Shown piece by piece: positions 10,422-28,766 of a stretch of DNA of 64,000 nucleotides. Position 1 is the stretch's first letter, and every line of letters begins with the position of its first letter. The notes beneath the pieces were generated by a model, which did no database searches, had not been told where the DNA came from, and was given only the letters and a program-made list of their open reading frames with translations. Origin of the DNA: Acidovorax sp. A1169 (GTDB lineage Bacteria > Pseudomonadota > Gammaproteobacteria > Burkholderiales > Burkholderiaceae_C); NCBI RefSeq assembly GCF_030704685.1, contig NZ_JAUZDX010000007.1:1-64000 (forward strand). The letters are read 5' to 3'. The position numbers and the translations under genes are program-made.

Positions 10422-10454
10422 CAGACTCACCTGCGCAATCGGTTCAGTAACGTA

Positions 10455-10544
10455 GGTGAGCGTCGTTGCGGGATGGTCGGCCCCGAGCCTGACGGACAGC
10501 AGGCATCTGTGTGCCTGGGCGGTCCGCTGCAACGCTCCTCGGGG
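10455..10544 (-). ncRNA. S-adenosylhomocysteine (SAH) riboswitch
   Basis: On the minus strand the leader of metH reads CCCCGAGGAGCGTTGC, a variable stem region, CAGGCTCGGGG, then GCAACGACGCTCACC. This matches the SAH riboswitch pattern. P1 pairs GAGCG/GTTGC with GCAAC/CGCTC. The CCCCGAG start pairs with CTCGGGG as the pseudoknot. CGGAC/GTCCG forms P2, and CAGGCA-cacaga-TGCCTG is an extra hairpin. SAH riboswitches are known in proteobacteria ahead of ahcY, metH and metF and turn expression on when SAH accumulates. The 3' end lies about 34 bases before the metH start codon. Confidence 0.92.
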
Positions 10545-10552
10545 AAGATGCG

Positions 10553-14697: not shown

Positions 14698-15720
14698 CTA
14701 TGCGTGCGGAATCCCGTCGATGGGGCATTCGGCCGTGCCCACCGTGCTGCGCGTGAGCGCCTCTACGGCCTGGCGCGTGCCCTCGGGGTCGGTTACCCAG
14801 CGCTGGTAGAAGCCGTAGGGGCAGGCGGCCACGCCTTTGTCTCCTTCGCCGGAGTTGAGAACGCCGGTATAGCCGCGGTGCAGCAGCTTGAACAGGTGAT
14901 TCTCGGACTGGCCGTTCCTGCGGAAATCGCGGATCAGGCTGGTGGAGAGCGCCGCATACTGCACGCCGTACTCCTCTTCACCGCACTCACCCAGCGTGCG
15001 GCCGTCAAAGCCAATCAGCGCCGAGTGGCCGAAGTAGCTGTACACGCCATCGAACCCTGCCGCATTGGCCACCGCCACGTAGGTATTGTTGGCAAAGGCC
15101 ATGGCCTTGCTGATGAGGATCTGCTGCTCTTTGGCCGGGTACATGTAGCCCTGGCAGCGCACGATGAGCTCGGCCCCCTTCATCGCGCAGTCGCGCCAGA
15201 TCTCGGGGTAGTTGCCATCGTCGCAGATGATGAGGCTGATCTTCAGGCCCTTGGGCCCGTCGCTCACATAGGTCTGGTCGCCCGGGTACCAGCCCTCAAT
15301 GGGCGTCCAGGGCATGATCTTGCGGTACTTCTGCACGATCTCGCCCTGGTCGTTCATCAGGATCAGCGTGTTGTAGGGCATCTTGTGCGGGTGCTCCTCG
15401 TGCCGCTCGCCGGTCAGCGAGAACACGCCCCAGACCTTGGCCTTGCGGCACGCCGCCGCGAAGATTTCCGTCTCGGGGCCAGGAATGGTGGTGGCGGTGT
15501 CCATCATCTCCTGGCGGTCGTACATGATGCCGTGGGTGCTGTACTCGGGGAAGATGGCGAGGTCCATGCCCGGCAGGCCGGTCTTCATGCCGACCAGCAT
15601 GTCGGCGATCTTGCGCGCGTTGTCCAGCACGTCGGCCTGGGTGTGCAGGCGCGGCATCTTGTAGTTGACGACCGCGACGCCGACGGTGTCCTTGCTGCTT
15701 GAAATGTCGCCGTGGATCAT
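14698..15720 (-). CDS. amiE: Aliphatic amidase
   Basis: A 340-residue nitrilase-superfamily aliphatic amidase that hydrolyses short amides such as acetamide and propionamide to acid and ammonia. It aligns without gaps at the start to the Pseudomonas AmiE pattern ([20 protein letters not shown]). The catalytic triad is in place: Glu59 in FPEYS, Lys134 in KYRKIMPW, Cys166 in [11 protein letters not shown]. The C-terminal tail is a few residues shorter than the Pseudomonas enzyme. It is the last gene of the amide operon, 31 bases behind fmdB, with AAGGAG before its ATG. The AmiE sequence pattern separates it from AmiF formamidases. Confidence 0.95.
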
Positions 15721-15751: not shown

Positions 15752-16117
15752 TCAGTGGCTGATCATCCAGGGCCTTTTGGTGGGAAAGGTCTTGGCGCCG
15801 TTGGGAGCGGTGACGGTGCTGCCGCGTTTGCTGCTGCCGCCGCTGCAGCAACCACACCCCGAGGGATGGCGCAGCCGGCCATAGCTGCCGGCATCGCCAT
15901 CGCGTGAGGACGAGCGCGGGGCGTGCTGGGCACGCTCGTTGGTGTCGTGCGCGCGGCGCTGCTCTGGGCTCACGCAGGCCAGGTGCGGTGCGTGGGCGAA
16001 TACGCGTGCCGAAGCCGCCCCGCAGGCGGGGCAGGCACAGGGCTCGTTGCGCAGGGCCACGCTGCGCAGCGCATCGAAATTGCCGCAGTCGGCGCAGGCG
16101 TAGTCGTAGGTGGGCAT
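15752..16117 (-). CDS. fmdB: FmdB-family zinc ribbon protein
   Basis: A 121-residue protein starting [20 protein letters not shown], the hallmark of the FmdB zinc-ribbon family, with a second cysteine pair in CACPACG (about residues 28-34). The C-terminal half is low-complexity, with a further Cys pair in GCGCCSGG. FmdB was first named as a regulatory protein of formamidase expression in Methylophilus methylotrophus, but the biochemical role of the family is unsettled. It lies 15 bases downstream of fmdA in the same operon. Confidence 0.9.
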
Positions 16118-16132: not shown

Positions 16133-17362
16133 CTACTTGTCTTGCGAGATCGGCATGTCGATGCTGCCGTCGAGCATCTTCACCGGGCCGGCGGCCGTGG
16201 GGTTGATGTCGAAGTCGAAGATCTCCGTGGGCAGCCACAGCGTGGCGCAGGCATTGGGCACGTCCACCACACCGCTGATATGGCCCTGCACCGGGGCGGT
16301 GCCCAGGATGGAATAGGCCTGCGCGCCGCTGTAGCCGAACTTCTTGAGGTATTCGATGGCGTTCAGGCAGGCTTGGCGGTAGGCCACCGTGACATCCAGG
16401 TAGTGCTGCTTGCCCGATTCGTCGACCGAGATGCCCTCGAAGATCAGGTAGTCCTTGTAGTTGGGCGTAACCGGGCTGGGCTTGAAGATGGGGTTCTTGA
16501 TGCCGTACTTGGCCATGCCGCCCTTGATCAGGCTGACCTTCATGTGTACCCAGCCGGCCATCTCGATGGCGCCGCAGAAGGTGATTTCGCCATCGCCCTG
16601 GCTGAAGTGCAGGTCGCCCACCGAGAGGCCCGCGCCTTCCACGTAGACCGGGAAGTACACCTTGGAGCCGCGCGAGAGGTCCTTGATGTCGCAATTGCCG
16701 CCGTGCTCGCGCGGCGGCACGGTGCGCGCGCCCTCGGCGGCGGCCTTGGCCTTGGCCTCGCCCTGCAGCTTGCCCATGTGGGCGGTGGTGCCGTTGGGCG
16801 GGTTGGCCAGGCCGGGCACGCGGTCCGGGTCGGTGGCGATCAGCTCGGCCTCGCGGGCGTTCCAGGCGTCGAGCATCTTCTGGTCGGGCAGGCAGCCGAT
16901 CAGGCCGGGGTGGATCAGCCCTGCGAAGTTCACGCCCGGGATGTGGCGGCTGTTGGTGAACATGCCGTGGAAGTCCCAGATGGACTTTTGCGCCAGCGGG
17001 TAGTGCTCGGTCAGGAAGCCGCCGCCGTTCTTCTTGGAGAAGAAGCCGTTGAAGCCCCACAGGCTGTCGTCGCGCGCGCCGATGTCGAGCAGGTCCACCA
17101 CCAGCAGGTCGCCCGGCTCTGCGCCTTTGACGCCCACGGGGCCCGACAGGAAGTGCACAGTGGACAGGTCCACGTCGCGCACGTCGTCGGCGCTGTCGTC
17201 GTTCTTGATCGCGCCACCCGTCCAGTCATAGGTTTCGAGCTTGAACTCCGCCCCGGGCTCCACCCACACGGCCATGGGGATGTCCGGGTGCCAGCGGTTG
17301 TGCATCAACGGGTTGTCGTACGGGGACTGCTTGAGGTCCACCTTGATCAGGGTATCGGCCAT
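16133..17362 (-). CDS. fmdA: Formamidase (acetamidase/formamidase family)
   Basis: A 409-residue FmdA-type amidase, hydrolysing formamide to formate and ammonia. This family is unrelated to AmiE. Diagnostic stretches are RWHPDIPMAVWVEPGAEFKL near the N-terminus, LSGPVGVKGAEPGDLLVVDL, the PGVNFAGLIHPGLIGCLPD region near residue 145, and SVGDLHFSQGDGEITFCGAI. It sits between the transporter genes and fmdB, so the operon imports amides and cleaves them in the cytoplasm. AAGGAG precedes the ATG. Confidence 0.95.
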   Translation of the reverse strand: MADTLIKVDLKQSPYDNPLMHNRWHPDIPMAVWVEPGAEFKLETYDWTGGAIKNDDSADDVRDVDLSTVHFLSGPVGVKGAEPGDLLVVDLLDIGARDDSLWGFNGFFSKKNGGGFLTEHYPLAQKSIWDFHGMFTNSRHIPGVNFAGLIHPGLIGCLPDQKMLDAWNAREAELIATDPDRVPGLANPPNGTTAHMGKLQGEAKAKAAAEGARTVPPREHGGNCDIKDLSRGSKVYFPVYVEGAGLSVGDLHFSQGDGEITFCGAIEMAGWVHMKVSLIKGGMAKYGIKNPIFKPSPVTPNYKDYLIFEGISVDESGKQHYLDVTVAYRQACLNAIEYLKKFGYSGAQAYSILGTAPVQGHISGVVDVPNACATLWLPTEIFDFDINPTAAGPVKMLDGSIDMPISQDK

Positions 17363-17418: not shown

Positions 17419-18108
17419 TCAGACGGAAAGGTAGGCCTTGATGTGCTGCTGGTCGGTGTCCGCGCGCGCCGTCTCGTGCACCAGGCGGCCGCCTTCGATG
17501 ACGAACAGGCGGTCGGCCACGTCCATGGCAAACGAGAGCACCTGCTCGCTGACCACGATGGTGATTTGGCGCAGCTTGCGGATCTCGTTGAGTGCCTTGG
17601 CGATGTCCTTGATGATGGAAGGCTGGATGCCCTCGGTGGGCTCGTCGAGCAGCAGCACCTTGGGGTCGGTGACCAGCGCGCGCGCAATCGCCAGCTGCTG
17701 CTGCTGCCCGCCCGAGAGGTTGCCGCCCTTGCGCCGGCGCATGTCCCAGAGCACGGGGAACAGCGCGTAGATCTCGTCGGGTATCTCGCGCGTCTTCGAG
17801 TTTTCGAGGCCCGTCTGGATGTTCTCTTCCACCGTCAGTGTCGGAAAGATCATGCGGCCCTGGGGCACGTAGGCGATGCCCTTGGCCACGCGGCGAAAGC
17901 TCTCGTCCTTCGTCACCTCCTGGCCGGCCACGCTGATGCTGCCGCTCTTGACCGGCATCACGCCCATGAGGCTCTTGAACAGCGTGGTCTTGCCCATGCC
18001 GTTGCGGCCCATGATGGCCACGGTTTCGTTGGCGCGGCCCGAGAACGAGATGCCGTGCAGTGCTTCACTCTGGCCATAGGCCACGAACAGGTCCTTGACT
18101 TCCAACAT
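17419..18108 (-). CDS. urtE: Urea/short-chain amide ABC transporter ATPase UrtE
   Basis: A 229-residue ABC ATPase of the branched-chain-amino-acid/urea (HAAT) class. Walker A GRNGMGKTT is at about 34-42, the signature NLSGGQQQQLAIARAL at about 132, Walker B VLLLDEPTEGI at about 155, and the H-loop position is occupied differently, in VVSEQ, as is usual for UrtE/LivF. It is the last transporter gene, 56 bases before fmdA. UrtD is the partner ATPase. Confidence 0.95.
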   Translation of the reverse strand: MLEVKDLFVAYGQSEALHGISFSGRANETVAIMGRNGMGKTTLFKSLMGVMPVKSGSISVAGQEVTKDESFRRVAKGIAYVPQGRMIFPTLTVEENIQTGLENSKTREIPDEIYALFPVLWDMRRRKGGNLSGGQQQQLAIARALVTDPKVLLLDEPTEGIQPSIIKDIAKALNEIRKLRQITIVVSEQVLSFAMDVADRLFVIEGGRLVHETARADTDQQHIKAYLSV

Positions 18109-18139: not shown

Positions 18140-18883
18140 TCAGTGGCCGAGGTAGACGTCGATCACCTTCGGGTCGTTCTGGACCTTGTCCATCGAGCCC
18201 TCGGCCAGGATCTTTCCCTGGTGCATGACGGTGACCTTGTGCGCGATGCGCTTGACGAACTCCATGTCGTGCTCGATCACGATCACCGCGCGGTTCTTGC
18301 AGATGCGCTGCAGCAGCTCGGCGGTGAGCTCGCGCTCGCGCGCGCTCATGCCGGCGATGGGTTCGTCGAGCATCAGCAGCTCGGGCTCCTGCATCAGCAA
18401 CATGCCGATCTCCAGCCACTGCTTTTGCCCGTGCGAGAGCAGGCCCGCCTCGGTTTCGAGCTTGTCGCCCAGGCCGATGTCATCGGCCACGGCCTGCACA
18501 CGCTCCTTCACCGCCGGTGTGCAACGGAACGCCAGCGCGCCGAAGACCGAGCGGCCCGAGGGGTAGGAGACCTCCAGGTTCTGGAACACCGAGAGGTTCT
18601 CGTAGATCGAGGGCGTCTGGAACTTGCGGCCGATGCCCAGGCGCACGCGCTTGTGTTCGGCCATGCGCGTGAGCTCCTCGTTCTTGAACTTGATGCTGCC
18701 ACCGGTGGCGCGCGTCTTGCCGCAGATCAGGTCCAAGAGCGTGGTCTTGCCCGCACCGTTGGGGCCGATGATCACGCGCAGCTCGTTCTTGTCGACATAC
18801 AGCGTGAGGGCGTCGATGGCCTTGAAGCCGTCGAACGAGACCGTGAGGTCTTCCACGGCCAGGGCGAAGTCGGTGTTGCTCAT
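18140..18883 (-). CDS. urtD: Urea/short-chain amide ABC transporter ATPase UrtD
   Basis: A 247-residue ABC ATPase. Walker A is GPNGAGKTT (about 40-48), the signature region LLSHGQKQWLEIGMLL (about 147), Walker B LLMLDEPIAGM, and the H-loop VIVIEHDMEFVK. The LSHGQKQ variant of the LSGGQ signature is characteristic of UrtD. It forms the ATPase pair with UrtE and lies 31 bases upstream of it in the operon. Confidence 0.95.
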   Translation of the reverse strand: MSNTDFALAVEDLTVSFDGFKAIDALTLYVDKNELRVIIGPNGAGKTTLLDLICGKTRATGGSIKFKNEELTRMAEHKRVRLGIGRKFQTPSIYENLSVFQNLEVSYPSGRSVFGALAFRCTPAVKERVQAVADDIGLGDKLETEAGLLSHGQKQWLEIGMLLMQEPELLMLDEPIAGMSARERELTAELLQRICKNRAVIVIEHDMEFVKRIAHKVTVMHQGKILAEGSMDKVQNDPKVIDVYLGH

Positions 18884-18910: not shown

Positions 18911-20104
18911 TCAGGCGCTCTGGCTGCTGGTGCCTTCGGGCAGGGTGGGAGCCTTGGCGGCTTCGGCCTCGGTGGCAGTACGCGGGGTGGTCGTGGGTGG
19001 TGGCACAGAGGCCTGGCGCAGCGCCTCGCGCCGGCCCTTCCACCAAGGCACGATGTGGCTCTCCCACAGGCCCGCCAGGCCCATGGGGAAGGCCATGGTC
19101 ACGCCGATGAACAGGGCCGCCATGAGGAACAGCCACAGGTCGGGGAAGCTCTCGGAGAAGTAGGTCTTGCCCGCATTCACCAGCAAGGTGCCGTAGACCG
19201 CACCCACCAGGCTCATGCGCCCGCCCACGGCGGCATAGATCACCATCTCGATGGAGGGAACGATGCCCACGAAGCTCGGCGACATGAAGCCCACCTGCAG
19301 CGAGAACAGCGCACCGCCGATACCCGACAGCGCAGCGGCCAGGCAGAAGGTGAAGACCTTGAAGTTGGCCACGTCGTAGCCCGAAAAGCGCACGCGGTCT
19401 TCCTTGTCGCGCATGGCCAGCAGCAGGGTGCCGAGCTTGCTGGTCTGGATGAAGCGGCACAGCACGATGGACAACACCAGCAGTGCCACGCACACGTAGT
19501 ACAGGATGTACTTGGCGCTGTCGGTGCGCGTGTCCCAGCCCCACAGGGTCTTGAGGTCGGTCATGCCGTTGACGCCGCCGGTGTAGCCCTGCTGGCCGAT
19601 GATGAGCACGGTGCAGATCAGCGCCACGGCCTGGGTGATGATGGCGAAGTACACCCCGCCCACGCGGCGCTTGAACATGGCGAAGCTCACGATCCAGGCC
19701 AGCAGCGTGGGCACCACGATCACGGCAGCCAACGAGAACGGCAGGCTCTTGAACGGCACCCAGAGTGCGGGCAGTTCGGTGATCTGGTTCCAGTCCATGA
19801 AGTCGGGAATGCCCGGTGTGGACTGGATCTTGGTGCTGATGGGATCGGAGGCTTCGAGCTTGAGGAACATCGCCATGGCGTAGCCGCCCAGGCCGAAGAA
19901 CACGCCCTGCCCCAGGCTGAGCACGCCGCCGTAGCCCCAGACCATGACCAGACCGATGGCCACGAAGGCGTAGGTGAGGTATTTGCCCACGAGGTTCAGG
20001 CGAAAGATGTCGAGCGCCAGTGGCAGCACCACGGCCAGCAGCACGGTGAGCAGCACCAGGCTGGCGAGCTGGTAGCGCTGGATCCAGGCTTTGAGGGCAT
20101 TCAT
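18911..20104 (-). CDS. urtC: Urea/short-chain amide ABC transporter permease UrtC
   Basis: A 397-residue LivM/UrtC-type permease with about ten membrane helices. The N-terminal helix LASLVLLTVLLAVVLPLALD precedes the family segment LVMVWGYGGVLSLGQGVFFG (about 58-77). The EAA-like loop contains AMRDKEDRVRFSGYDVANFK. A charged, Pro/Thr-rich C-terminal tail is cytoplasmic. It is longer than LivM, as UrtC proteins are. It pairs with UrtB. Confidence 0.94.
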   Translation of the reverse strand: MNALKAWIQRYQLASLVLLTVLLAVVLPLALDIFRLNLVGKYLTYAFVAIGLVMVWGYGGVLSLGQGVFFGLGGYAMAMFLKLEASDPISTKIQSTPGIPDFMDWNQITELPALWVPFKSLPFSLAAVIVVPTLLAWIVSFAMFKRRVGGVYFAIITQAVALICTVLIIGQQGYTGGVNGMTDLKTLWGWDTRTDSAKYILYYVCVALLVLSIVLCRFIQTSKLGTLLLAMRDKEDRVRFSGYDVANFKVFTFCLAAALSGIGGALFSLQVGFMSPSFVGIVPSIEMVIYAAVGGRMSLVGAVYGTLLVNAGKTYFSESFPDLWLFLMAALFIGVTMAFPMGLAGLWESHIVPWWKGRREALRQASVPPPTTTPRTATEAEAAKAPTLPEGTSSQSA

Positions 20105-20145: not shown

Positions 20146-21060
20146 TCAGCGGCGCACCTTGGAGGCGAACAGGCCCTGCGGCCGCACCATGAGGATCAGC
20201 ACGATCAGCGACAGCGTGATCACCTTGGCCATGGAGCCGGCCAGGAAGAACTCGGTGATCGACTGCGTCTGCGCGATGCCGAAGGCCGAGACCACGGTGC
20301 CCAACAGGCTGGCCGCGCCGCCGAAGGTGACGACCAGGAAGGCATCCACGATGTAGAGCGAGCCCGAGGTCGGCCCCGTGGAGCCGATGGTGGTGAAGGC
20401 AGCCCCCGCCACGCCGGCGATGCCGCAGCCGATGGCGAAAGTCAGGCGGTCGGTCTTTTGCGTATCGATGCCCGTGGCGTTGGCCATCACGCGGTTGGCC
20501 ACCGTGGCACGGACCCTGAGGCCCCAGCGGCTTCGGTGCAGAGCCAGCAGCACGCCACAGGTGACCACCGCCGTGAGACCCAGCACGAACATGCCGTTGA
20601 TGGGGATGTCCAGGCCCTCGACGGGCGCCCAGGAGCCCAGCAGCCAGTCGGGCAGCGTGGGGCTGACTTCCTTGGGGCCGATGAAGGTGCGAAAGCACTG
20701 CTGCAGTGCCAGGCTGATGCCCCAGGTAGCCAGCAGCGTATCGAGCGGGCGCTTGTACAGGTGGCGGATGAGCCCCCACTCCACCAGCCAGCCCGCGGCA
20801 AAGGCAAAGCCGAAGGCGGCCACGATGGCCACCGGAAAATAGTAAGCCACCAGCTGCGGCGCATGCGTGGAGGCCAGCGTGGAGCCCAGGTAGATGGTGT
20901 AGGCGCCGATGGTCATGAACTCGCCATGCGCCATGTTGATCACGCCCATCTGCCCGAAGATGATGGCCAGCCCCAGGCCCATGAGCAGCAGCACGGCAAA
21001 CAGGCTCAGGCCCGCAAAGCCCTGCATGAGGCCGATGTTGAGCATTTCCGAAAAGTTCAT
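20146..21060 (-). CDS. urtB: Urea/short-chain amide ABC transporter permease UrtB
   Basis: A 304-residue LivH/UrtB-type permease. The N-terminal part carries GLGLAIIFGQMGVINMAHGE (about 30-49), diagnostic for the family, followed by membrane helices and the loop RATVANRVMANATGIDTQKT. It has no large periplasmic N-terminal extension of the kind found in some UrtB proteins. An 83-base gap with a hairpin separates it from urtA upstream; urtC follows 41 bases later. Confidence 0.94.
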   Translation of the reverse strand: MNFSEMLNIGLMQGFAGLSLFAVLLLMGLGLAIIFGQMGVINMAHGEFMTIGAYTIYLGSTLASTHAPQLVAYYFPVAIVAAFGFAFAAGWLVEWGLIRHLYKRPLDTLLATWGISLALQQCFRTFIGPKEVSPTLPDWLLGSWAPVEGLDIPINGMFVLGLTAVVTCGVLLALHRSRWGLRVRATVANRVMANATGIDTQKTDRLTFAIGCGIAGVAGAAFTTIGSTGPTSGSLYIVDAFLVVTFGGAASLLGTVVSAFGIAQTQSITEFFLAGSMAKVITLSLIVLILMVRPQGLFASKVRR

Positions 21061-21143: not shown

Positions 21144-22412
21144 TTACTGGTAGCCCTTAGGGAATGGATCGGGCTTGATGAGCTCGGGCGACTCTGCGAC
21201 GACCTTGAAGCTCGCATCCGGCATGCCCATGGCGATGCGCGACTTGCTCCACAGGTGGTGGTTGGCGTCGAGCTTGACGTAGCCCTCGGGTGCGGTCTTG
21301 AGCTCAATGCCCGGCGAGGCGGCCACCACCTTGTCCACGTCGAAGCTCTTGGCCTTCTCGACCGCGGCCTTCCACAGCCACGGGCCCAGGTAGCCGGCCT
21401 GGGTCACGTCGCCGATCACGGCATCCTTGCCGTACTTGCCCTTGAAGGCAGCGACGAACTTCTTGTTGTTCTCGTTGTCCAGCGACTGGAAGTACTTCAT
21501 CGACGAGAAGAAGCCCGCGAAGTTCTCGCCGCCCACGCCCGTCATCTCGTCCTCGGTGACCGAGAGGGTGACCAAAAGCTGCTTGTCGCCCGTGATGCCG
21601 GCGGCCTTGAGCGCCTTGTAGAACGCCACGTTGGAGCCGCCCACCACGGCGACGAACAGGCAGTCGGGCTTCTGCACCTTGATCTTGTTCATCAGCGAGC
21701 CGAAGTTGGTGCTGCCCAGCGGGTAGTACTCCTCGCCCACGATCTTGCCCTTCTGAAAGTTCTCCACGTGCTTGCGCGCGATCTTCATCGAGGTGCGCGG
21801 CCAGATGTAGTCCGAGCCGATCAGGAAGAAGGTCTTGGCCTTCTTCTCGGTCTTGGCCCACTCCAGGCTGTACAGGATCTGCTGCGTGGCCTCCTGGCCG
21901 GTGTAGATCACGTTCTTGGACTGCTCCAGGCCTTCGTAGAAGGTGGGGTAGTACAAGAGGCCGTTCTCCTTTTCGAACACCGGCAGCACGGCCTTGCGCG
22001 AGGCGCTGGTCCAGCAGCCGAACACGGCGGCGCAGTGGTCGTTGATGAGCAGCTTCTTGGATTTTTCGGCGAAGGTAGGCCAGTCGGAGGCGCCGTCTTC
22101 CTTGATGACCTTGATCTTGCGGCCCAGCACGCCACCCATGGCATTGATCTGGTCAATGGCGAGCTGCTCGGCCTGGATGGAGCCGGTCTCGGAGATGGCC
22201 ATGGTGCCGGTGGCCGAATGCAGCTGGCCCACGGTGACTTCGGTGTCCGTCACGGCCAGCTTGGTGGTGTTGACCTGGGCGGTGGGCTGGGCGAAGGACC
22301 AGGCCGGCAGGCCCGCCATCGAGGCGGCGCCCATGGCCTGCAGCAGGCGGCGGCGGCCGCCGTCCGTGGAGGGAGGAAGGCCCAGGGCATTCGGATCGGT
22401 GAGGTGCTTCAT
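21144..22412 (-). CDS. urtA: Urea/short-chain amide ABC transporter receptor UrtA
   Basis: A 422-residue periplasmic binding protein of the UrtA/AmiC-like family. The export signal (about 20-45) has twin arginines (GGRRRLLQAMGAASMAG). The mature protein shows VTVGQLHSATGTMAISETGS, the start of UrtA/FmdD receptors, and VFGCWTSASRKAVLPVFE. The ATG at 22412 has AAGGAG nine bases upstream. It heads the operon and faces the transporter-kinase gene at 22604. Given fmdA and amiE in the operon, the ligand may be a short-chain amide as well as, or instead of, urea. Confidence 0.94.
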   Translation of the reverse strand: MKHLTDPNALGLPPSTDGGRRRLLQAMGAASMAGLPAWSFAQPTAQVNTTKLAVTDTEVTVGQLHSATGTMAISETGSIQAEQLAIDQINAMGGVLGRKIKVIKEDGASDWPTFAEKSKKLLINDHCAAVFGCWTSASRKAVLPVFEKENGLLYYPTFYEGLEQSKNVIYTGQEATQQILYSLEWAKTEKKAKTFFLIGSDYIWPRTSMKIARKHVENFQKGKIVGEEYYPLGSTNFGSLMNKIKVQKPDCLFVAVVGGSNVAFYKALKAAGITGDKQLLVTLSVTEDEMTGVGGENFAGFFSSMKYFQSLDNENNKKFVAAFKGKYGKDAVIGDVTQAGYLGPWLWKAAVEKAKSFDVDKVVAASPGIELKTAPEGYVKLDANHHLWSKSRIAMGMPDASFKVVAESPELIKPDPFPKGYQ

Positions 22413-22603
22413 GGTGAAAACGCTCCTTGCAACAGACGGGTTGGGGTGGTGTGCGGCGCTGGCCGGCTGGGTTGCCGTGGGTGCCGCGCTGGTGCCAAGA
22501 TTAGGGACAACCCTGGTACGCGCCCATACGTCAATTAACGTAGCCCGTGCGTACGCACCTCGCGGCAAGCGTTGCTAGAACGTTTCTTGCATGGGCCCCG
22601 TGC

Positions 22604-25600
22604 ATGCCCTCCACCCCTCCGTCCGGCGCGCCCCAGCCTGCCCAGCAGACGATCTTTCGCTTCCGGCGCGAGTACAACGCCTGGGTGGCCGACGAGACCA
22701 TGGAGGACTACGCGCTGCGCTACACCCCCAAGAGCTTTCGGCGCTGGAGCGAGTTCCGCGTGGCGAACACGGCGTTCGGCTCGCTGTCCTTTCTGGCGCT
22801 GGAGGCCATCGGCGGGGCGATTGCGCTCAACTACGGCTTCAGCAATGCCATGTGGGCCATCCTCGCGGTGGGGGTGCTGATCTTCCTCACCGGGCTGCCG
22901 ATTGCCTACTACGCGGCGCGCTACGGGCTGGACATGGACCTGCTCACGCGCGGCGCGGGCTTCGGCTACCTGGGCTCGACCATCACCTCGCTGATCTACG
23001 CGGTGTTCACCTTCATCTTCTTCGCGCTGGAGGCGGCCATCATGGCGCTGGCGCTGCAGATGGTGGTGGACTGGCCGCTGCAGTGGTGCTACGTGGTCTC
23101 GTCCCTGGTCATCCTGCCCCTGGCCATGCGCGGCATCACGCTGATCTCGCGCCTTCAGGCCTGGACGCAGCCGCTGTGGCTGTTTTTGCTGCTGCTGCCC
23201 TTCGTCTGGATCGCGCTGGCGCAGCCGCAGCTGTACCGCGACTTCGCGGGGCTGTCGGGCCTCAAGAGCGGCAGCAGCCAGTTCAACCTGCTGATGTTCG
23301 GCGTGGCGGGCACGGTGATCTTCTCGCTGGTGGTGCAGATCGGCGAGCAGGTGGACTTTCTGCGCTTTTTGCCCGAGCGCACGGCCGCCAACCGCTGGCG
23401 CTGGTGGGGCGCGGTGCTGGTGGCGGGCCCGGGCTGGATCGTGATGGGCATGCTGAAGATGGCGGGCGGCGCCTTCCTGGCCTTTGCGGCACTGCAGTTC
23501 GAGGTGGGCACCACGCGCGCGGCCGAGCCCACGCAGATGTTCCTGGCGGGCTTCCACCAGGTCATGGCGGCGCTCGGACTGCCGGGCCTGGCGGTGGCGG
23601 TCACGGTGCTCTTCGTCGTCGTCTCGCAGATCAAGATCAACCTGACGAATGCCTACGCGGGCTCGCTCGCCTGGTCCAACTTCTTCGCGCGCATCACGCG
23701 CAGCCACCCGGGGCGCGTGGTCTGGCTGGTGTTCAACGTGGGCATCGCCACGCTGCTCATGACGCTCGGGGTCTTCGGCGCGCTCGAGAAGGTGCTGGCG
23801 GTTTACAGCAACGTGGCGATTGCCTGGGTGGGGGCGCTGGTGGCTGACCTGGTGATCAACAAACCGCTCGGGCTGTCGCCGCCGGGCATCGAGTTCCGCC
23901 GTGCGCACCTGTACGACTTCAACCCCGTGGGCCTGGGCTCCATGGTGCTGGCGGCCACGGTGGCCTGCTGCGCCTACGCGGGCATGCTCGGCGAGATGGC
24001 GGCCGCGTTCTCTCCCTTCATTGCGCTGGTGCTGTCGATGGCGCTGGCGCCGCTGCTGGCCTGGGCCACGGGCGGGCGCTACTACCTGGCGCGCCAGCCC
24101 GACACCACCTGGCAGCCCGGCGAGGCGGTGCGCTGCACGGTGTGCGAGAACCAGTTCGAATCCGAAGACATGGCGCGCTGCCCGGCCTATGGCGCGGCCA
24201 TCTGCTCGCTGTGCTGCTCGCTCGAATCGCGCTGCCATGACCGCTGCAAGACCGGCTCGCGCGCCACCGACCAGCTGCGCGCCGTGGCCGCGCTGCTGTT
24301 GCCGCGCCACTGGGCGGCCAAGGTCAACTTCCGCATGGGCCAGTACCTGATGGTGATGGTCTCGCTGTGCGCGGTGATGGTCTTCCTGCTCGGCGTGGTC
24401 TATGTGCAGGAGAGCATCGAGACGCCAGCGCAGTTCCTGCGCATGCCCTTCTTCAAGGTGTTCGCGCTGCTGGCCCTGCTGGCCGCCGTGTGCGCCTGGT
24501 GGGTGGTGCTGAGCACCGACAGCCGGCGCATGGCGCAGGATGAATCGGAGCGGCAGACGCAGCTCTTGCTGCAGGAGATCGAGGCGCACAAGCGCACCGA
24601 TGCCGAGCTGCAAGCCGCCAAGGACCAGGCCGAATCGGCCAGCCTGGCCAAGACGCGCTATGTGGCCGGCATGACGCACGAGCTGCGTTCGCCGCTCAAC
24701 AGCATCCTCGGCTACACCCAGATCCTGCTCAAGAACCCGCAGACCGATGGCTGGCTGCGCGAGAGCCTGTCCACCATCCAGCACAGCGGCCAGCACATGC
24801 ATGCGCTGATCGACGGCTCGCTGGAGCTGGCGCGCATCGAGGCCGGCCGCCTGCGCCTGGACCTGCTGCCCCTGCCCCTGCCCGAGCTGATCCAGAACGT
24901 GGAGGGCATGCTGCGCCCGCAAGCGGAGGCCAGGGGCCTGCGCTTCGTGGTGCAGACCGAAGGCACCATGCCCGGCTGGATACGGGCCGATGCCAAGCGG
25001 CTGCGCCAGATTTTGATCAACCTGCTGTCCAACGCGGTGCGCTTCACCGAGCGCGGCGAGGTGCGGCTGCGCCTGGACTTTCGCCCGCATGTCTCGCGCA
25101 TCGAGGTGATCGACACCGGCATCGGCATCGAGCCGCAAGACCTTGAACGCATCTTCCTGCCGTTCGAGCGTGGCAGCGCCGGCCGCCGCGCGAGCGAGGC
25201 CGGAACCGGCCTGGGCCTGACCATCACGCACCTGCTCACGCAGCTCATGGGGGGCGAGCTCACGGTGGCCAGCACGCCCGGCCAGGGCAGCACCTTCACC
25301 GTGCGCCTGTACCTGCCCGGCATCTCGCCCGACCCGGCATGGCGCCCGGCCCACATGGCGGCACTGCGCCCGGTGATCGGCCACATCGGCCCGCGCCGCA
25401 CGCTGCTGGTGGTGGACGACCAGCCGCTGCAGCGCCAATTGCTGGCTGGCCTGCTAGTGCCGCTGGGCTTCATCGTGCGCGAGGCGGCCAGTGGCCTCGA
25501 ATGCGTGGAGATCGTGCGCCAGAGCCCGCCCGACCTGGTGCTGCTGGACATTTCCATGGACGACCTCGATGGCTGGCAGACGGCCGCGCTGCTGCGCACG

Positions 25601-26041
25601 CTGCGCCCGGCGTCGGAGCTGCCCATCGTCTTCGTCTCGGCCAACCAGTTCGACCACGAGCCCGGGCGCCTGGCGGCCATGCAGGTGCAGAGCTTCGTGG
25701 GCAAGCCGGTGATCGAGTCCGAGCTGCTGCGCGCGCTGCAGGCGGCGCTGCAGCTCGAATGGGTGCACGACAACACGCCGCCACCCTTGCCGACCGCAAT
25801 GGGCGAGGCCGTGGGCCAGGTACCTGCGTCCACCAGCCTGCCCCAGGGCCTGCGCGACGACCTGACCCGACTGGCACGCCAGGGCCAGGCCGGCGCCGTG
25901 CGCGAGCTGCTGCGCCAGGCGCGTGCCGAACTGCCTGCCCATGCCGCCGCACTGGCCGTGCTGCAGGCCTGCGCCGACCGTTTCGATTTCGAGGCCCTGG
26001 CCCACCACCTTCGCGAACCCGACCATGAACAGCTCCTTTGA
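22604..26041 (+). CDS. Hybrid sensor histidine kinase with NCS1-permease module
   Basis: An 1145-residue fusion. Residues about 1-500 form a complete NCS1 (nucleobase:cation symporter-1)-like permease with about 12 helices, including LEAIGGAIALNYGFSNAMWA. Residues 511-548 hold a cysteine cluster starting CTVC. Two further helices (about 580 and 620) and a coiled coil lead to HisKA (His692 in MTHELRSPLNSILGY) and HATPase (DTGIGI, GTGLGL). A receiver domain has Asp982 in LLDISMDDLDGW. A helical tail without an obvious phosphotransfer His ends the protein. The start at 22604 is the ATG nearest the conserved part; one at 22547 would add 19 residues. It probably senses an amide/urea-related compound and faces the amide operon. 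Confidence 0.9.
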   Translation: MPSTPPSGAPQPAQQTIFRFRREYNAWVADETMEDYALRYTPKSFRRWSEFRVANTAFGSLSFLALEAIGGAIALNYGFSNAMWAILAVGVLIFLTGLPIAYYAARYGLDMDLLTRGAGFGYLGSTITSLIYAVFTFIFFALEAAIMALALQMVVDWPLQWCYVVSSLVILPLAMRGITLISRLQAWTQPLWLFLLLLPFVWIALAQPQLYRDFAGLSGLKSGSSQFNLLMFGVAGTVIFSLVVQIGEQVDFLRFLPERTAANRWRWWGAVLVAGPGWIVMGMLKMAGGAFLAFAALQFEVGTTRAAEPTQMFLAGFHQVMAALGLPGLAVAVTVLFVVVSQIKINLTNAYAGSLAWSNFFARITRSHPGRVVWLVFNVGIATLLMTLGVFGALEKVLAVYSNVAIAWVGALVADLVINKPLGLSPPGIEFRRAHLYDFNPVGLGSMVLAATVACCAYAGMLGEMAAAFSPFIALVLSMALAPLLAWATGGRYYLARQPDTTWQPGEAVRCTVCENQFESEDMARCPAYGAAICSLCCSLESRCHDRCKTGSRATDQLRAVAALLLPRHWAAKVNFRMGQYLMVMVSLCAVMVFLLGVVYVQESIETPAQFLRMPFFKVFALLALLAAVCAWWVVLSTDSRRMAQDESERQTQLLLQEIEAHKRTDAELQAAKDQAESASLAKTRYVAGMTHELRSPLNSILGYTQILLKNPQTDGWLRESLSTIQHSGQHMHALIDGSLELARIEAGRLRLDLLPLPLPELIQNVEGMLRPQAEARGLRFVVQTEGTMPGWIRADAKRLRQILINLLSNAVRFTERGEVRLRLDFRPHVSRIEVIDTGIGIEPQDLERIFLPFERGSAGRRASEAGTGLGLTITHLLTQLMGGELTVASTPGQGSTFTVRLYLPGISPDPAWRPAHMAALRPVIGHIGPRRTLLVVDDQPLQRQLLAGLLVPLGFIVREAASGLECVEIVRQSPPDLVLLDISMDDLDGWQTAALLRTLRPASELPIVFVSANQFDHEPGRLAAMQVQSFVGKPVIESELLRALQAALQLEWVHDNTPPPLPTAMGEAVGQVPASTSLPQGLRDDLTRLARQGQAGAVRELLRQARAELPAHAAALAVLQACADRFDFEALAHHLREPDHEQLL

Positions 26042-26951
26042 CCCATCGGCCCCAGCCAGCCCCGCAGGGCCCGGCCAGCGCGTCATCCTGGTGGTGGACG
26101 ATGCCCTGGACACCCTGCGCATGCTCTGCGACGCGCTCGCCGCAGAGGGCTATGCTGTGCTGGCCGCGCGCGATGCGCAGGAGGCCCTGCAACGCTTCGA
26201 CATGGTGGTGCCCGACGGGGTGCTGCTGGACGCGGTGATGCCCGGCATCGACGGCTTTGCGCTGTGCCGCCAGCTCAAGGCCACGCCGCCCTGGTCGCAC
26301 GTGCCCATCGTGTTCATGACCGGGCTGTCGGACACGGCGCAGATCCTGCAGGGCTTTGACAGTGGCGGGGTGGACTATGTGGTCAAGCCGCTGCGCATCC
26401 CCGAGGTGCTGGCGCGCCTGGCGACCCACGTGCGCAATGCCCAGGCCACGCGCATGGCGCGCGAGGCCGTGGACGTGGCCGGCCTGGGCGTGGTGGTACT
26501 CGATGGCCAGGGCCGCATGGCCTGGCGCTCACCCCAGGCCACACGCTGGCTGGAAGATGCCTTTGCCCATGCCGAGGCGCCCGCAGAACTGGCCGCTGCC
26601 TGGCTGGTGCAGGCCCAGCGCGATGGCGAACAGACCCTGGCATTGGCCGACGGCCGGCAGCTGCTGGCCCGGCACATGGGGGCCAGCGGCCTGGCCGAAT
26701 CGATGCTGCTGCTCAGCCACGCACGGCCGGAGGCCGCCGCGCCGCGCCGCCTGCAGCAGGTGGCGTTGACGCCGCGCGAGACCGAGGTGCTCTCGTGGCT
26801 GACCAAGGGCAAGACCAACCGCGACATCGCCGACATCCTGGGCATGAGCCCGCGCACGGTGAACAAGCACCTGGAGCACATCTTCGAGAAGCTGGGGGTG
26901 GAGACACGCACCGCCGCTGCAGCCATCGCGGGGCAGCTGCTGCAGGGCTGA
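26025..26951 (+). CDS. LuxR-type response regulator, partner of the transporter-kinase
   Basis: A 308-residue response regulator. The receiver domain spans about 20-140, with the acidic pair in VILVVDDALD, phospho-acceptor Asp69 in LLDAVMPGIDGF and the Lys of VDYVVKPLRIPEV. A degenerate PAS-like segment (about 150-235, GLGVVVLDGQGRMAWR) follows. A LuxR/NarL HTH ends the protein (about 250-305, LTPRETEVLSWLTKGKTNRD). Its ATG lies inside the last codons of the kinase gene (17-base overlap), so the two are translationally coupled. The likely target is the divergent urt-fmd-ami operon. Confidence 0.92.
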   Translation: MNSSFDPSAPASPAGPGQRVILVVDDALDTLRMLCDALAAEGYAVLAARDAQEALQRFDMVVPDGVLLDAVMPGIDGFALCRQLKATPPWSHVPIVFMTGLSDTAQILQGFDSGGVDYVVKPLRIPEVLARLATHVRNAQATRMAREAVDVAGLGVVVLDGQGRMAWRSPQATRWLEDAFAHAEAPAELAAAWLVQAQRDGEQTLALADGRQLLARHMGASGLAESMLLLSHARPEAAAPRRLQQVALTPRETEVLSWLTKGKTNRDIADILGMSPRTVNKHLEHIFEKLGVETRTAAAAIAGQLLQG

Positions 26952-27788: not shown

Positions 27789-28766
27789 ATGGCTTTTTCC
27801 TCGGACAACATCCAGGTCTTTCTTTCGGTGCTGGACCAGGGGTCCTTTTCGGCTGCAGCCCGCAGCCTCTCGCGCGTGCCGTCTGCCGTGAGCATGGCCA
27901 TTGCCCACCTGGAGGCGGAGCTGGACATGCCGCTCTTTGACCGCAGCGGCCGCGAGCCCCGGCCCACGGCGGCGGCCCGGGCTCTGGAGCCCCAGGCGCG
28001 GCTGCTGGCCGGTCAGCTGCAGCAGCTCAATGCGCAGGCGCTGTCGCTCACCCAGGGGCTGGAGGAACGGCTCACGGTGGCGATTGCGCCCGAGCTGCTG
28101 GCCTCGCGCTGGACGGAGCCCATTGCCGCCCTGGCACGCGAATACCCGCTGCTGCAGGTGGAGGTGCTGGCCGCGCCCCAGGTCGATGCGCTCGAGTTGC
28201 TGCACACCGGGCGCGCGCAGCTGGCGCTGGTGTTCGAGCGGCCCAGCATCGACGGGCGCGAAGGCTTCCAGGAGGTAGGCAGCGAAACCCTGGTGGCCGT
28301 GATGGCACCCGACCACCCGGTGCTGCAGGCCGCGCGCGAAGCTGCCACCGCGCGCGGCGAACCGGCCGGGGAGGCGCAGCTGCGCGAGGAGCACCTCACG
28401 ACCACACGGCAGATCGTGGTGGCCAGCCGCGACCTGGCGCAGATCGACCGGCGCTTCGTCTTCGCGCGCCACCACTGGCGTACCGACAACCACCTGGCCG
28501 CCCTGGGCCTGATCGAGGCCGGCCTGGGCTGGGGCTGGCAGCCACGCGCCCTGGTGCAGCCGCGCATCGACGCCGGCACCCTGGTGGAGATGCCCTTCGA
28601 GAACCTGAGCAATGGCACGGCCCTGTGGGTGGACGTGGTGTGGTCCAAAGAGCGGCCGCTGGGTCTGGGCGCACGGCGCTTCGTGGCGCTGATGTCGCAC
28701 GACGCGTACCGGGCCGGGCATCCCGCCGAGCAGGTCTGCTCCACGTCCGCATCAGAACACGCGTGA
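27789..28766 (+). CDS. LysR family regulator of the PACE gene
   Basis: A 325-residue LysR-type regulator. The HTH (residues 1-60) contains IQVFLSVLDQGSFSAAARSL and VPSAVSMAIAHLEAELDMPL. The effector domain starts near residue 95 (RLTVAIAPELLASRW). It is divergent from the PACE efflux gene, so it most likely activates or represses it in response to a compound that PACE exports. Its last 15 bases overlap the convergent MBL-hydrolase gene. Confidence 0.92.
   Translation: MAFSSDNIQVFLSVLDQGSFSAAARSLSRVPSAVSMAIAHLEAELDMPLFDRSGREPRPTAAARALEPQARLLAGQLQQLNAQALSLTQGLEERLTVAIAPELLASRWTEPIAALAREYPLLQVEVLAAPQVDALELLHTGRAQLALVFERPSIDGREGFQEVGSETLVAVMAPDHPVLQAAREAATARGEPAGEAQLREEHLTTTRQIVVASRDLAQIDRRFVFARHHWRTDNHLAALGLIEAGLGWGWQPRALVQPRIDAGTLVEMPFENLSNGTALWVDVVWSKERPLGLGARRFVALMSHDAYRAGHPAEQVCSTSASEHA

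Follow-up and report, generated by a model that had tools for sequence, protein, structure and literature searches.

A histidine kinase with an NCS1-like permease domain as a probable urea or short-amide sensor in Acidovorax sp. A1169

What does a histidine kinase sense when its N-terminal half resembles a permease, and which genes does it control? The question is raised by a protein of Acidovorax sp. A1169, encoded within positions 1 to 64,000 of contig NZ_JAUZDX010000007.1 (the whole 64,000-nucleotide stretch analysed, referred to as the window), in which a permease-like domain, a cysteine cluster, two additional membrane helices and a hybrid histidine kinase are joined in one chain beside genes for amide and urea use. 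The favored answer, with a probability of roughly 0.68, is a receptor kinase whose ligand is urea or a short-chain amide, which derives from an NCS1-type permease by gene fusion and switches on the adjacent urtABCDE-fmdA-fmdB-amiE genes.

Gene neighborhood and shared promoter region

The locus comprises two divergent gene sets and the region between them.

22604..26041, plus strand: permease-sensor hybrid histidine kinase gene, 1145 amino acids (open reading frame, Pfam, AlphaFold2 model, structure match)
26025..26951, plus strand: LuxR/NarL-type response regulator gene with Asp69, 308 amino acids (open reading frame, Pfam)
22527..22542, no strand assigned: palindrome TACGTCAATTAACGTA, putative target of the regulator between urtA and the kinase gene
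21144..22412, minus strand: urtA, substrate-binding protein (PF13433; start taken as the Met at 22412)
20146..21060, minus strand: urtB (position and tblastn conservation)
18911..20104, minus strand: urtC (PF02653)
18140..18883, minus strand: urtD (PF00005)
17419..18108, minus strand: urtE (PF00005)
16133..17362, minus strand: fmdA, formamidase/acetamidase (PF03069, E 1.3e-184)
15752..16117, minus strand: fmdB, zinc-ribbon protein (PF09723)
14698..15720, minus strand: amiE-like aliphatic amidase (PF00795; 82% identity to a gene annotated as aliphatic amidase in the Methylovirgula stretch L189)

The kinase and regulator genes overlap by 17 bases (22604-26041 versus 26025-26951), and urtABCDE-fmdA-fmdB-amiE is transcribed divergently from the pair; given the likely urtA start at 22412, 191 bases separate urtA from the kinase gene. 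The regulator has a receiver domain (residues 21-132) that includes Asp69 and a GerE/LuxR helix-turn-helix (residues 247-302), and is thus of the LuxR/NarL type. The closest named relative among the matches listed is Acidovorax sp. Root219 (100% over 550 residues).

The association between the fusion and these genes extends well beyond the window. Among 398 genomes sampled across the phylum, 52 contain the fusion and 38 contain a close homolog of the window UrtA (E <= 1e-140); all 38 also carry the fusion (hypergeometric test, 9e-42, kinship ignored). In 36 of these genomes no more than 800 bases lie between urtA and the kinase gene, the exceptions being G111, where the two genes are on different contigs, and G360 (a urt-urease cluster), where they are about 10 kb apart. 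The 57 other places found in the survey were fetched with up to 20 kb each; 56 hold the fusion and one (L182) a kinase-free homolog (30%) that was not used further. Adding a second fusion from the Acidovorax genome itself, and leaving out the window locus, gives 57 fusion loci. All except two that are cut by contig ends lie near urtA, fmdA or urease genes (55/57): 37 have fmdA (35 also urtA), 14 have urease genes (six also urtA), four have urtA only and two have none. All 35 loci with both urtA and fmdA have urtA running divergently from the kinase gene, and a homolog of the LuxR-type regulator is found in 55 of the 57 loci. The second fusion of the Acidovorax genome, whose permease is 59% identical, stands beside ureA/C/E/F/G, followed by its own LuxR-type regulator. 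In a set of near relatives (the best 80 of 217 loci), whose gene order is shared by descent and whose counts are not independent, urtA is divergent upstream in 77 of 80, 65 have fmdA and 75 have the regulator; contig ends account for some of the gaps. A single ancestral origin of the urease context was considered and is not supported: this label needs four changes on the tree, at least three of them forced by supported branches. One Azoarcus copy from a metagenome-assembled genome (L068:707-2941) encodes only 745 amino acids, has no Pfam match at E <= 0.01 and is truncated or frameshifted.

The family also occurs on plasmids. Among 72,556 plasmid records, 533 contain relatives of the permease region, with Klebsiella accounting for 342; many are surely near-copies. 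Six of 5,426 E. coli genomes carry the Klebsiella kinase gene, four of which have at least 80% of it. One annotated plasmid-borne Klebsiella record contains urtABCDE and formamidase genes divergent from the kinase gene. UTS, a cluster of the urt/formamidase kind, is discussed for urinary-tract Klebsiella (PMC13060141) and is likened to this Klebsiella cluster by kind only; the term histidine kinase does not occur in that paper's main text.

The promoter region shared by urtA and the kinase gene contains the palindrome listed above. The pattern TACGTNANNNNACGTA matches a single place in the 6.8-Mb genome, the window palindrome itself; the expectation for a stricter form in the window is 0.00, and when up to three mismatches are allowed one further genomic match appears, versus 12 for the reversed control. 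Of 35 amide loci (the 37 holding fmdA, with L163 and L177 dropped), 28 have TACG-N8-CGTA in the 500 bases upstream of the kinase gene. Among all 256 tetramer palindromes the runner-up is present in 11, and the other spacings between 4 and 13 yield 0 or 1. The near-relative set gives 66 of 80, with 30 for the next best tetramer. Fourteen copies lie away from the kinase gene, seven of which stand 73-115 bases before the estimated fmdA start, in loci where fmdA is separated from urtE. In the Sinorhizobium locus L122 the copy is located about 98 bases from the annotated urtA start, and in Acinetobacter baumannii L190 and L199 one stands between the fusion and a kinase-free permease gene. From its position, the helix-turn-helix of the regulator and the precedent of CrbR, we infer that the regulator probably binds this palindrome.

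Part of the family carries promoter elements of another kind. Half of 60 loci (30; L181 and L123 left out) have a sigma-54-like (-24/-12) site directed at the kinase gene, and 7 of 14 urease-labelled loci have one directed at the urease operon, against a background of 0.016 for each stretch and strand; 28 of 79 near relatives have such a site facing the kinase gene (background 0.028). This pattern suggests that in some members of the family the sensor is under nitrogen control. In the window there are none toward the kinase gene and a single one toward urtA that scores 9 at a threshold of 10, and thus no sigma-54 claim is made for this locus. Neither a sigma-70 promoter nor a terminator was matched within 22350-22650, and no Rfam family reached its gathering score at the kinase/urtA locus. 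Elsewhere in the window, at 10451-10546 on the minus strand, stands an SAH riboswitch (RF01057, 59.4 bits, with the gathering score at 37). Immediately beyond the two-component genes on their downstream side, a gene for a chlorhexidine efflux transporter (BTP, PF05232; 27226-27726, minus strand) is divergent from that of a LysR-type regulator (27789-28766, plus strand).

An earlier note on this DNA, made from the sequence without database searches, had described the 17-base overlap and the divergent urtABCDE-fmdAB-amiE genes, and both descriptions hold, the overlap from the open reading frames and the operon by Pfam, or for urtB by position and conservation. The pairing of the fusion with urt-fmd-ami genes, for which the note had proposed a genome survey, recurs as 55 of 57 loci near urt, formamidase or urease genes, and its idea of a nitrogen-compound sensor controlling amide or urea genes gains strong support from genome context and the conserved palindrome. 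The window palindrome and the urease-side paralog are points beyond that note. Together, the neighborhood and promoter comparisons argue strongly for a regulatory link between the sensor and the adjacent operon; the direction of control and a receptor rather than transporter function are what we infer in addition.

Permease domain, kinase core and kinase-free relatives

The protein consists of the following segments.

22733..24076, plus strand: NCS1-fold permease domain, approximately residues 44-491 (AlphaFold2 model; CodB Z 30.3 over model residues 31-491)
24134..24247, plus strand: eight-cysteine module, residues 511-548 (Cys 511, 514, 526, 534, 537, 538, 544 and 548; invariant in 42/42)
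24329..24523, plus strand: two extra membrane helices before the kinase, approximately residues 576-640 (AlphaFold2 helices 576-603 and 609-661; membrane nature from hydrophobicity)
24647..24847, plus strand: HisKA, residues 682-748, with His692 (Pfam)
24989..25315, plus strand: HATPase_c, residues 796-904 (Pfam)
25406..25738, plus strand: receiver, residues 935-1045, with Asp982 (Pfam)
25844..26011, plus strand: C-terminal helical segment, residues 1081-1136 (AlphaFold2 helices; no Pfam match)

A HisKA domain with its histidine, an HATPase domain and a receiver with its aspartate make this protein a hybrid histidine kinase. The full-length model has low global confidence (predicted template modelling score, pTM, 0.53), and any packing of the kinase on the permease in it is tentative.

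In the predicted structure, the fold of the N-terminal half is NCS1-like. An AlphaFold2 model of this region, built on 42 sequences (mean predicted local distance difference test, pLDDT, 77.9; pTM 0.79), retrieves NCS1 proteins at ranks 1-5 in Foldseek. VIA-align gives Z scores of 30.3 for CodB and of 27.9, 26.5 and 24.0 for Mhp1; the next other family, at 23.1, is tied with the lowest Mhp1 entry, and the SLC5 structures listed score 20.5 or less, below the NCS1 structures. Sequence profiles are less clear. hhalign against an alignment of Mhp1 with three NCS1 proteins of the same genome gives a probability of 96, and the cytosine permease model NF008241 is matched by residues 1-556 taken alone (E 4.5e-7) with 29 bits versus a cut-off of 326. 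For the full-length kinase, Pfam lists no permease family, and no permease is among the 25 of 151 NCBIfam families listed; PF02133 matches 0 of the 42 aligned N-terminal regions at E <= 1, the SSF (SLC5) domain has no match in the 42 members at the same threshold, and searches of the PDB by sequence (one protein, two profiles) leave the permease region unclassified. Among kinase-free homologs, one from Klebsiella passes PF02133 (38.1 versus 23.5 bits; one of eight related proteins scanned), and one from Streptomyces matches TIGR00800 (E 1.5e-6), under its cut-off. By profile cut-offs (PF02133, NCBIfam models) the domain thus falls outside NCS1, while by its LeuT-type fold, nearest to CodB and Mhp1, it falls within; the structure matches and the weak profile match together place the N-terminal half as an NCS1-fold domain outside the curated profiles. 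An NCS1-like identity is supported by the predicted structure and, weakly, by sequence.

Kinase-free homologs consist of the permease followed by some form of the cysteine segment, where they stop. In 8 of the 11 kinase-free stretches examined (near-copies being L123/L200 and L190/L199), urease genes (L123, L184, L200), formamidase genes (L185, L188) or the fusion itself (L189, L190, L199) are nearby. The urease neighbors are found on Acinetobacter plasmids (L123, L200) and in a Klebsiella record (L184), and the formamidase neighbors belong to Moraxella (L185) and Tsukamurella (L188). The Methylovirgula stretch (L189) combines the fusion and its regulator with a kinase-free permease, an amidase and a formamidase; in A. 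baumannii (L190, L199), the kinase-free permease is divergent from a fusion with HisKA, HATPase and receiver domains, followed by a LuxR-type regulator. The three permeases beside urease operons are annotated as cytosine permease (L184:8956-10563), hypothetical protein (L123:11992-13599) and allantoin permease (L200:9001-10608), and are candidate urea permeases. In the tree (midpoint root, the outgroup branch being very long; L181 left out), one branch with support 99/98 splits eight kinase-free from 62 fused sequences, which, with the midpoint root, fits a single fusion event. A Rhodococcus 'allantoin permease' (L125), whose branch is very long, is not included in the residue counts, leaving seven kinase-free sequences for comparison with the 62 fused ones.

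Eight residues, putative pocket positions among them, are conserved across both groups: E143, Q245, E248, D251, Q342, K344, N346 and N349 are identical in 62/62 fused and 7/7 kinase-free sequences. K344 and I345 align with Mhp1 S312 and T313, which we take to be sodium ligands of transmembrane helix 8, and the sodium-ligand pair of that helix is therefore absent here. In the same alignment E143 corresponds to Mhp1 Q121, F139 to W117, N346 to N314 and N349 to N318, all four named as residues of the benzyl-hydantoin pocket of Mhp1 (PMC13390362). No position separates amide-linked from urease-linked sensors at the 85% level, which favors one ligand class. Urease and the urt importer have urea in common, with formamide or acetamide as possible alternatives for the ligand; a ligand of the formamide/acetamide kind has been argued for an amidase-linked urt-like cluster of Bradyrhizobium (PMC3098086).

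These residues bear on the other readings of the protein. A true transceptor, whose permease domain both imports urea or amide and signals, with the kinase reading flux or the transport cycle as proposed for CbrA, is consistent with the full-length permease core and the retained pocket. In addition, the invariant K344 aligns with the sodium-site segment of Mhp1 and is reminiscent of CbrA, a reported proton-motive-force histidine transporter with a lysine (K196) in its Na2 site (PMC13022988). However, Asp66 is present in 7/7 unfused permeases and 0/62 fused proteins, all of which (62/62) have Glu67, and this loss hints at a receptor rather than a transporter; a dedicated UrtABCDE importer is moreover encoded next door, and in Ks-Amt5 the fused transporter domain binds without efficient translocation (PMC5764959). 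The transceptor is thus considered unlikely, and the fused proteins may be read, by analogy with Ks-Amt5, as having retained binding and changed coupling.

A nucleobase, hydantoin or allantoin ligand, as in characterized NCS1 proteins, is very improbable. The fold is nearest to the cytosine transporter CodB and the hydantoin transporter Mhp1, and relatives are annotated as cytosine or allantoin permeases; against this, urea, formamide or acetamide genes are neighbors in 55 of 57 loci, a glutamate occupies the position of Mhp1 Q121, and the known substrates of NCS1 proteins include non-heterocyclic compounds, for example metformin (PMC13390362). No purine or allantoin genes are listed in the annotated fusion-locus stretches inspected, no systematic neighborhood search having been made.

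None of the eight cysteines varies among the 42 sequences aligned, and almost every member of the wider set shows the same pattern; in L164 other sequence occupies the stretch where the module stands elsewhere. The module weakly resembles RING/FYVE domains (FYVE E 0.29; Prok-RING_1 in 6 of 42, best E 0.29). Its version in kinase-free permeases is complete in L189, shorter in others and mostly gone in the actinobacterial L187 and L188. A cytoplasmic signal (metal, redox or nitrogen status) read by this module, with the permease domain mainly an anchor, would suit such invariance and recurrence, and is given very little credence in view of the module's occurrence in kinase-free permeases, the loss of most cysteines in L187 and L188, and invariant pocket residues that a mere anchor would not be expected to keep.

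Here too the earlier note can be compared. The order it gave for the permease-like domain, cysteine cluster, two helices, HisKA/HATPase and receiver agrees with Pfam and the AlphaFold2 model, and His692, Asp982 and the regulator's Asp69 are where it placed them. Its NCS1-like permease stands in part, on the predicted structure and the weak NF008241 match (residues 1-556), with no Pfam permease family; the absence of any NCS1 profile match, which it had offered as grounds for refutation, holds for Pfam and narrowly fails for NCBIfam. Its idea of transport-coupled sensing gains no support, and the lack of Asp66 in the fused proteins hints at a receptor. Its nucleobase, hydantoin or allantoin suggestion fits the neighbors worse than urea or short amides do.

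Proposed mechanism and points against it

The receptor-kinase reading would work as follows. The family would have arisen by gene fusion from NCS1-type permeases whose unfused members are probably urea or amide permeases. Urea or an amide would bind in the permease fold; the signal would pass through the cytoplasmic eight-cysteine module and the added helical hairpin to the HisKA/HATPase core, and phosphate would then be transferred to the LuxR-type regulator, which would bind TACG-N8-CGTA and activate urtABCDE-fmdA-fmdB-amiE. In the urease-linked paralogs, the same device would serve urease.

Several observations weigh against this proposal. It is the gene neighbors alone that point to urea or a short amide as the ligand, and the fold is that of a predicted structure with a pLDDT of 77.9. 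The loci are related, so that their counts are not independent. The palindrome is absent near the kinase gene in 7 of the 35 amide loci, half of the 14 copies away from the kinase gene have no fmdA start close by, and the urease loci have it in 1 of 14; the Acidovorax paralog has a proposed related site, TACGTCGATTGGCGCA, which fits a post hoc pattern that has one match in the genome, its reversed control having two. The four urtA-only loci encode a UrtA merely 36-37% identical to that of the window; L122, which is related to them, has genes annotated urtABCDE. In the clade of L163 and L177, the permease, cysteine module and hairpin are joined to a kinase without a receiver (non-hybrid; for L177 from its sequence), with no matching LuxR-type regulator. 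Finally, three of the 11 kinase-free stretches show no urease or formamidase genes (L186 and L187 by annotation and tblastn, L191 by tblastn). In L163, the kinase gene is followed by one for a protein with receiver and HATPase domains.

Relation to known systems and significance

Formamidase genes standing with an amide/urea ABC importer, as here, are known from the fmd operon of Methylophilus methylotrophus, which serves short-chain amides and urea. A urea-responsive activator of urease, UreR, is also known; it is an AraC-type one-component regulator, unlike the kinase-regulator pair of the window. The architecture itself has parallels in CbrA and CrbS (SLC5-STAC sensor kinases) and RpuS (PMC9100948), which likewise join a LeuT-fold transporter to a histidine kinase. 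CrbS, like the window protein, is a hybrid paired with a LuxR-type regulator, which needs an imperfect inverted repeat (PMC5715377). Compared with CbrA and CrbS, the present protein has an NCS1-like domain instead of SLC5, probably a cysteine module and helical hairpin (AlphaFold2 model) where those have STAC, and an amide/urea context. The ammonium sensor kinase Ks-Amt5 is likewise a nitrogen-compound transporter domain turned receptor for a fused kinase; it differs in its Amt fold and is described as Amt with DHp and CA subdomains only (PMC5764959). CodB and Mhp1, the closest solved structures, have no fused kinase, and Mhp1 has Gln at the position of Glu143 and Ser where Lys344 aligns. The system is best seen as a transporter-fused sensor kinase whose transporter part is of the NCS1 type and whose ligand is probably urea or a short amide. 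Among the papers listed by the literature searches, none was on an NCS1-fused kinase, an NCS1 urea permease or a urea-sensing histidine kinase, and novelty is provisional.

A broader proposal, which we regard as evenly balanced, is that an undescribed and widespread NCS1-fold family recognizes urea and short amides. It would comprise kinase-free permeases feeding urease or formamidase, now annotated as cytosine permease, allantoin permease or hypothetical proteins, and kinase-fused receptors without the coupling aspartate, which would be the first known urea/amide histidine kinases and would act on an operator of their own, TACG-N8-CGTA. In soil, rumen, water and urine, much of the nitrogen supply comes as urea. 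If the proposal is true, it would assign a ligand to a sensor family present in 52 of 398 sampled genomes, suggest a function for urease-side permeases now named cytosine or allantoin permease, and provide natural kinase-free and kinase-fused pairs for asking how a transporter becomes a receptor.

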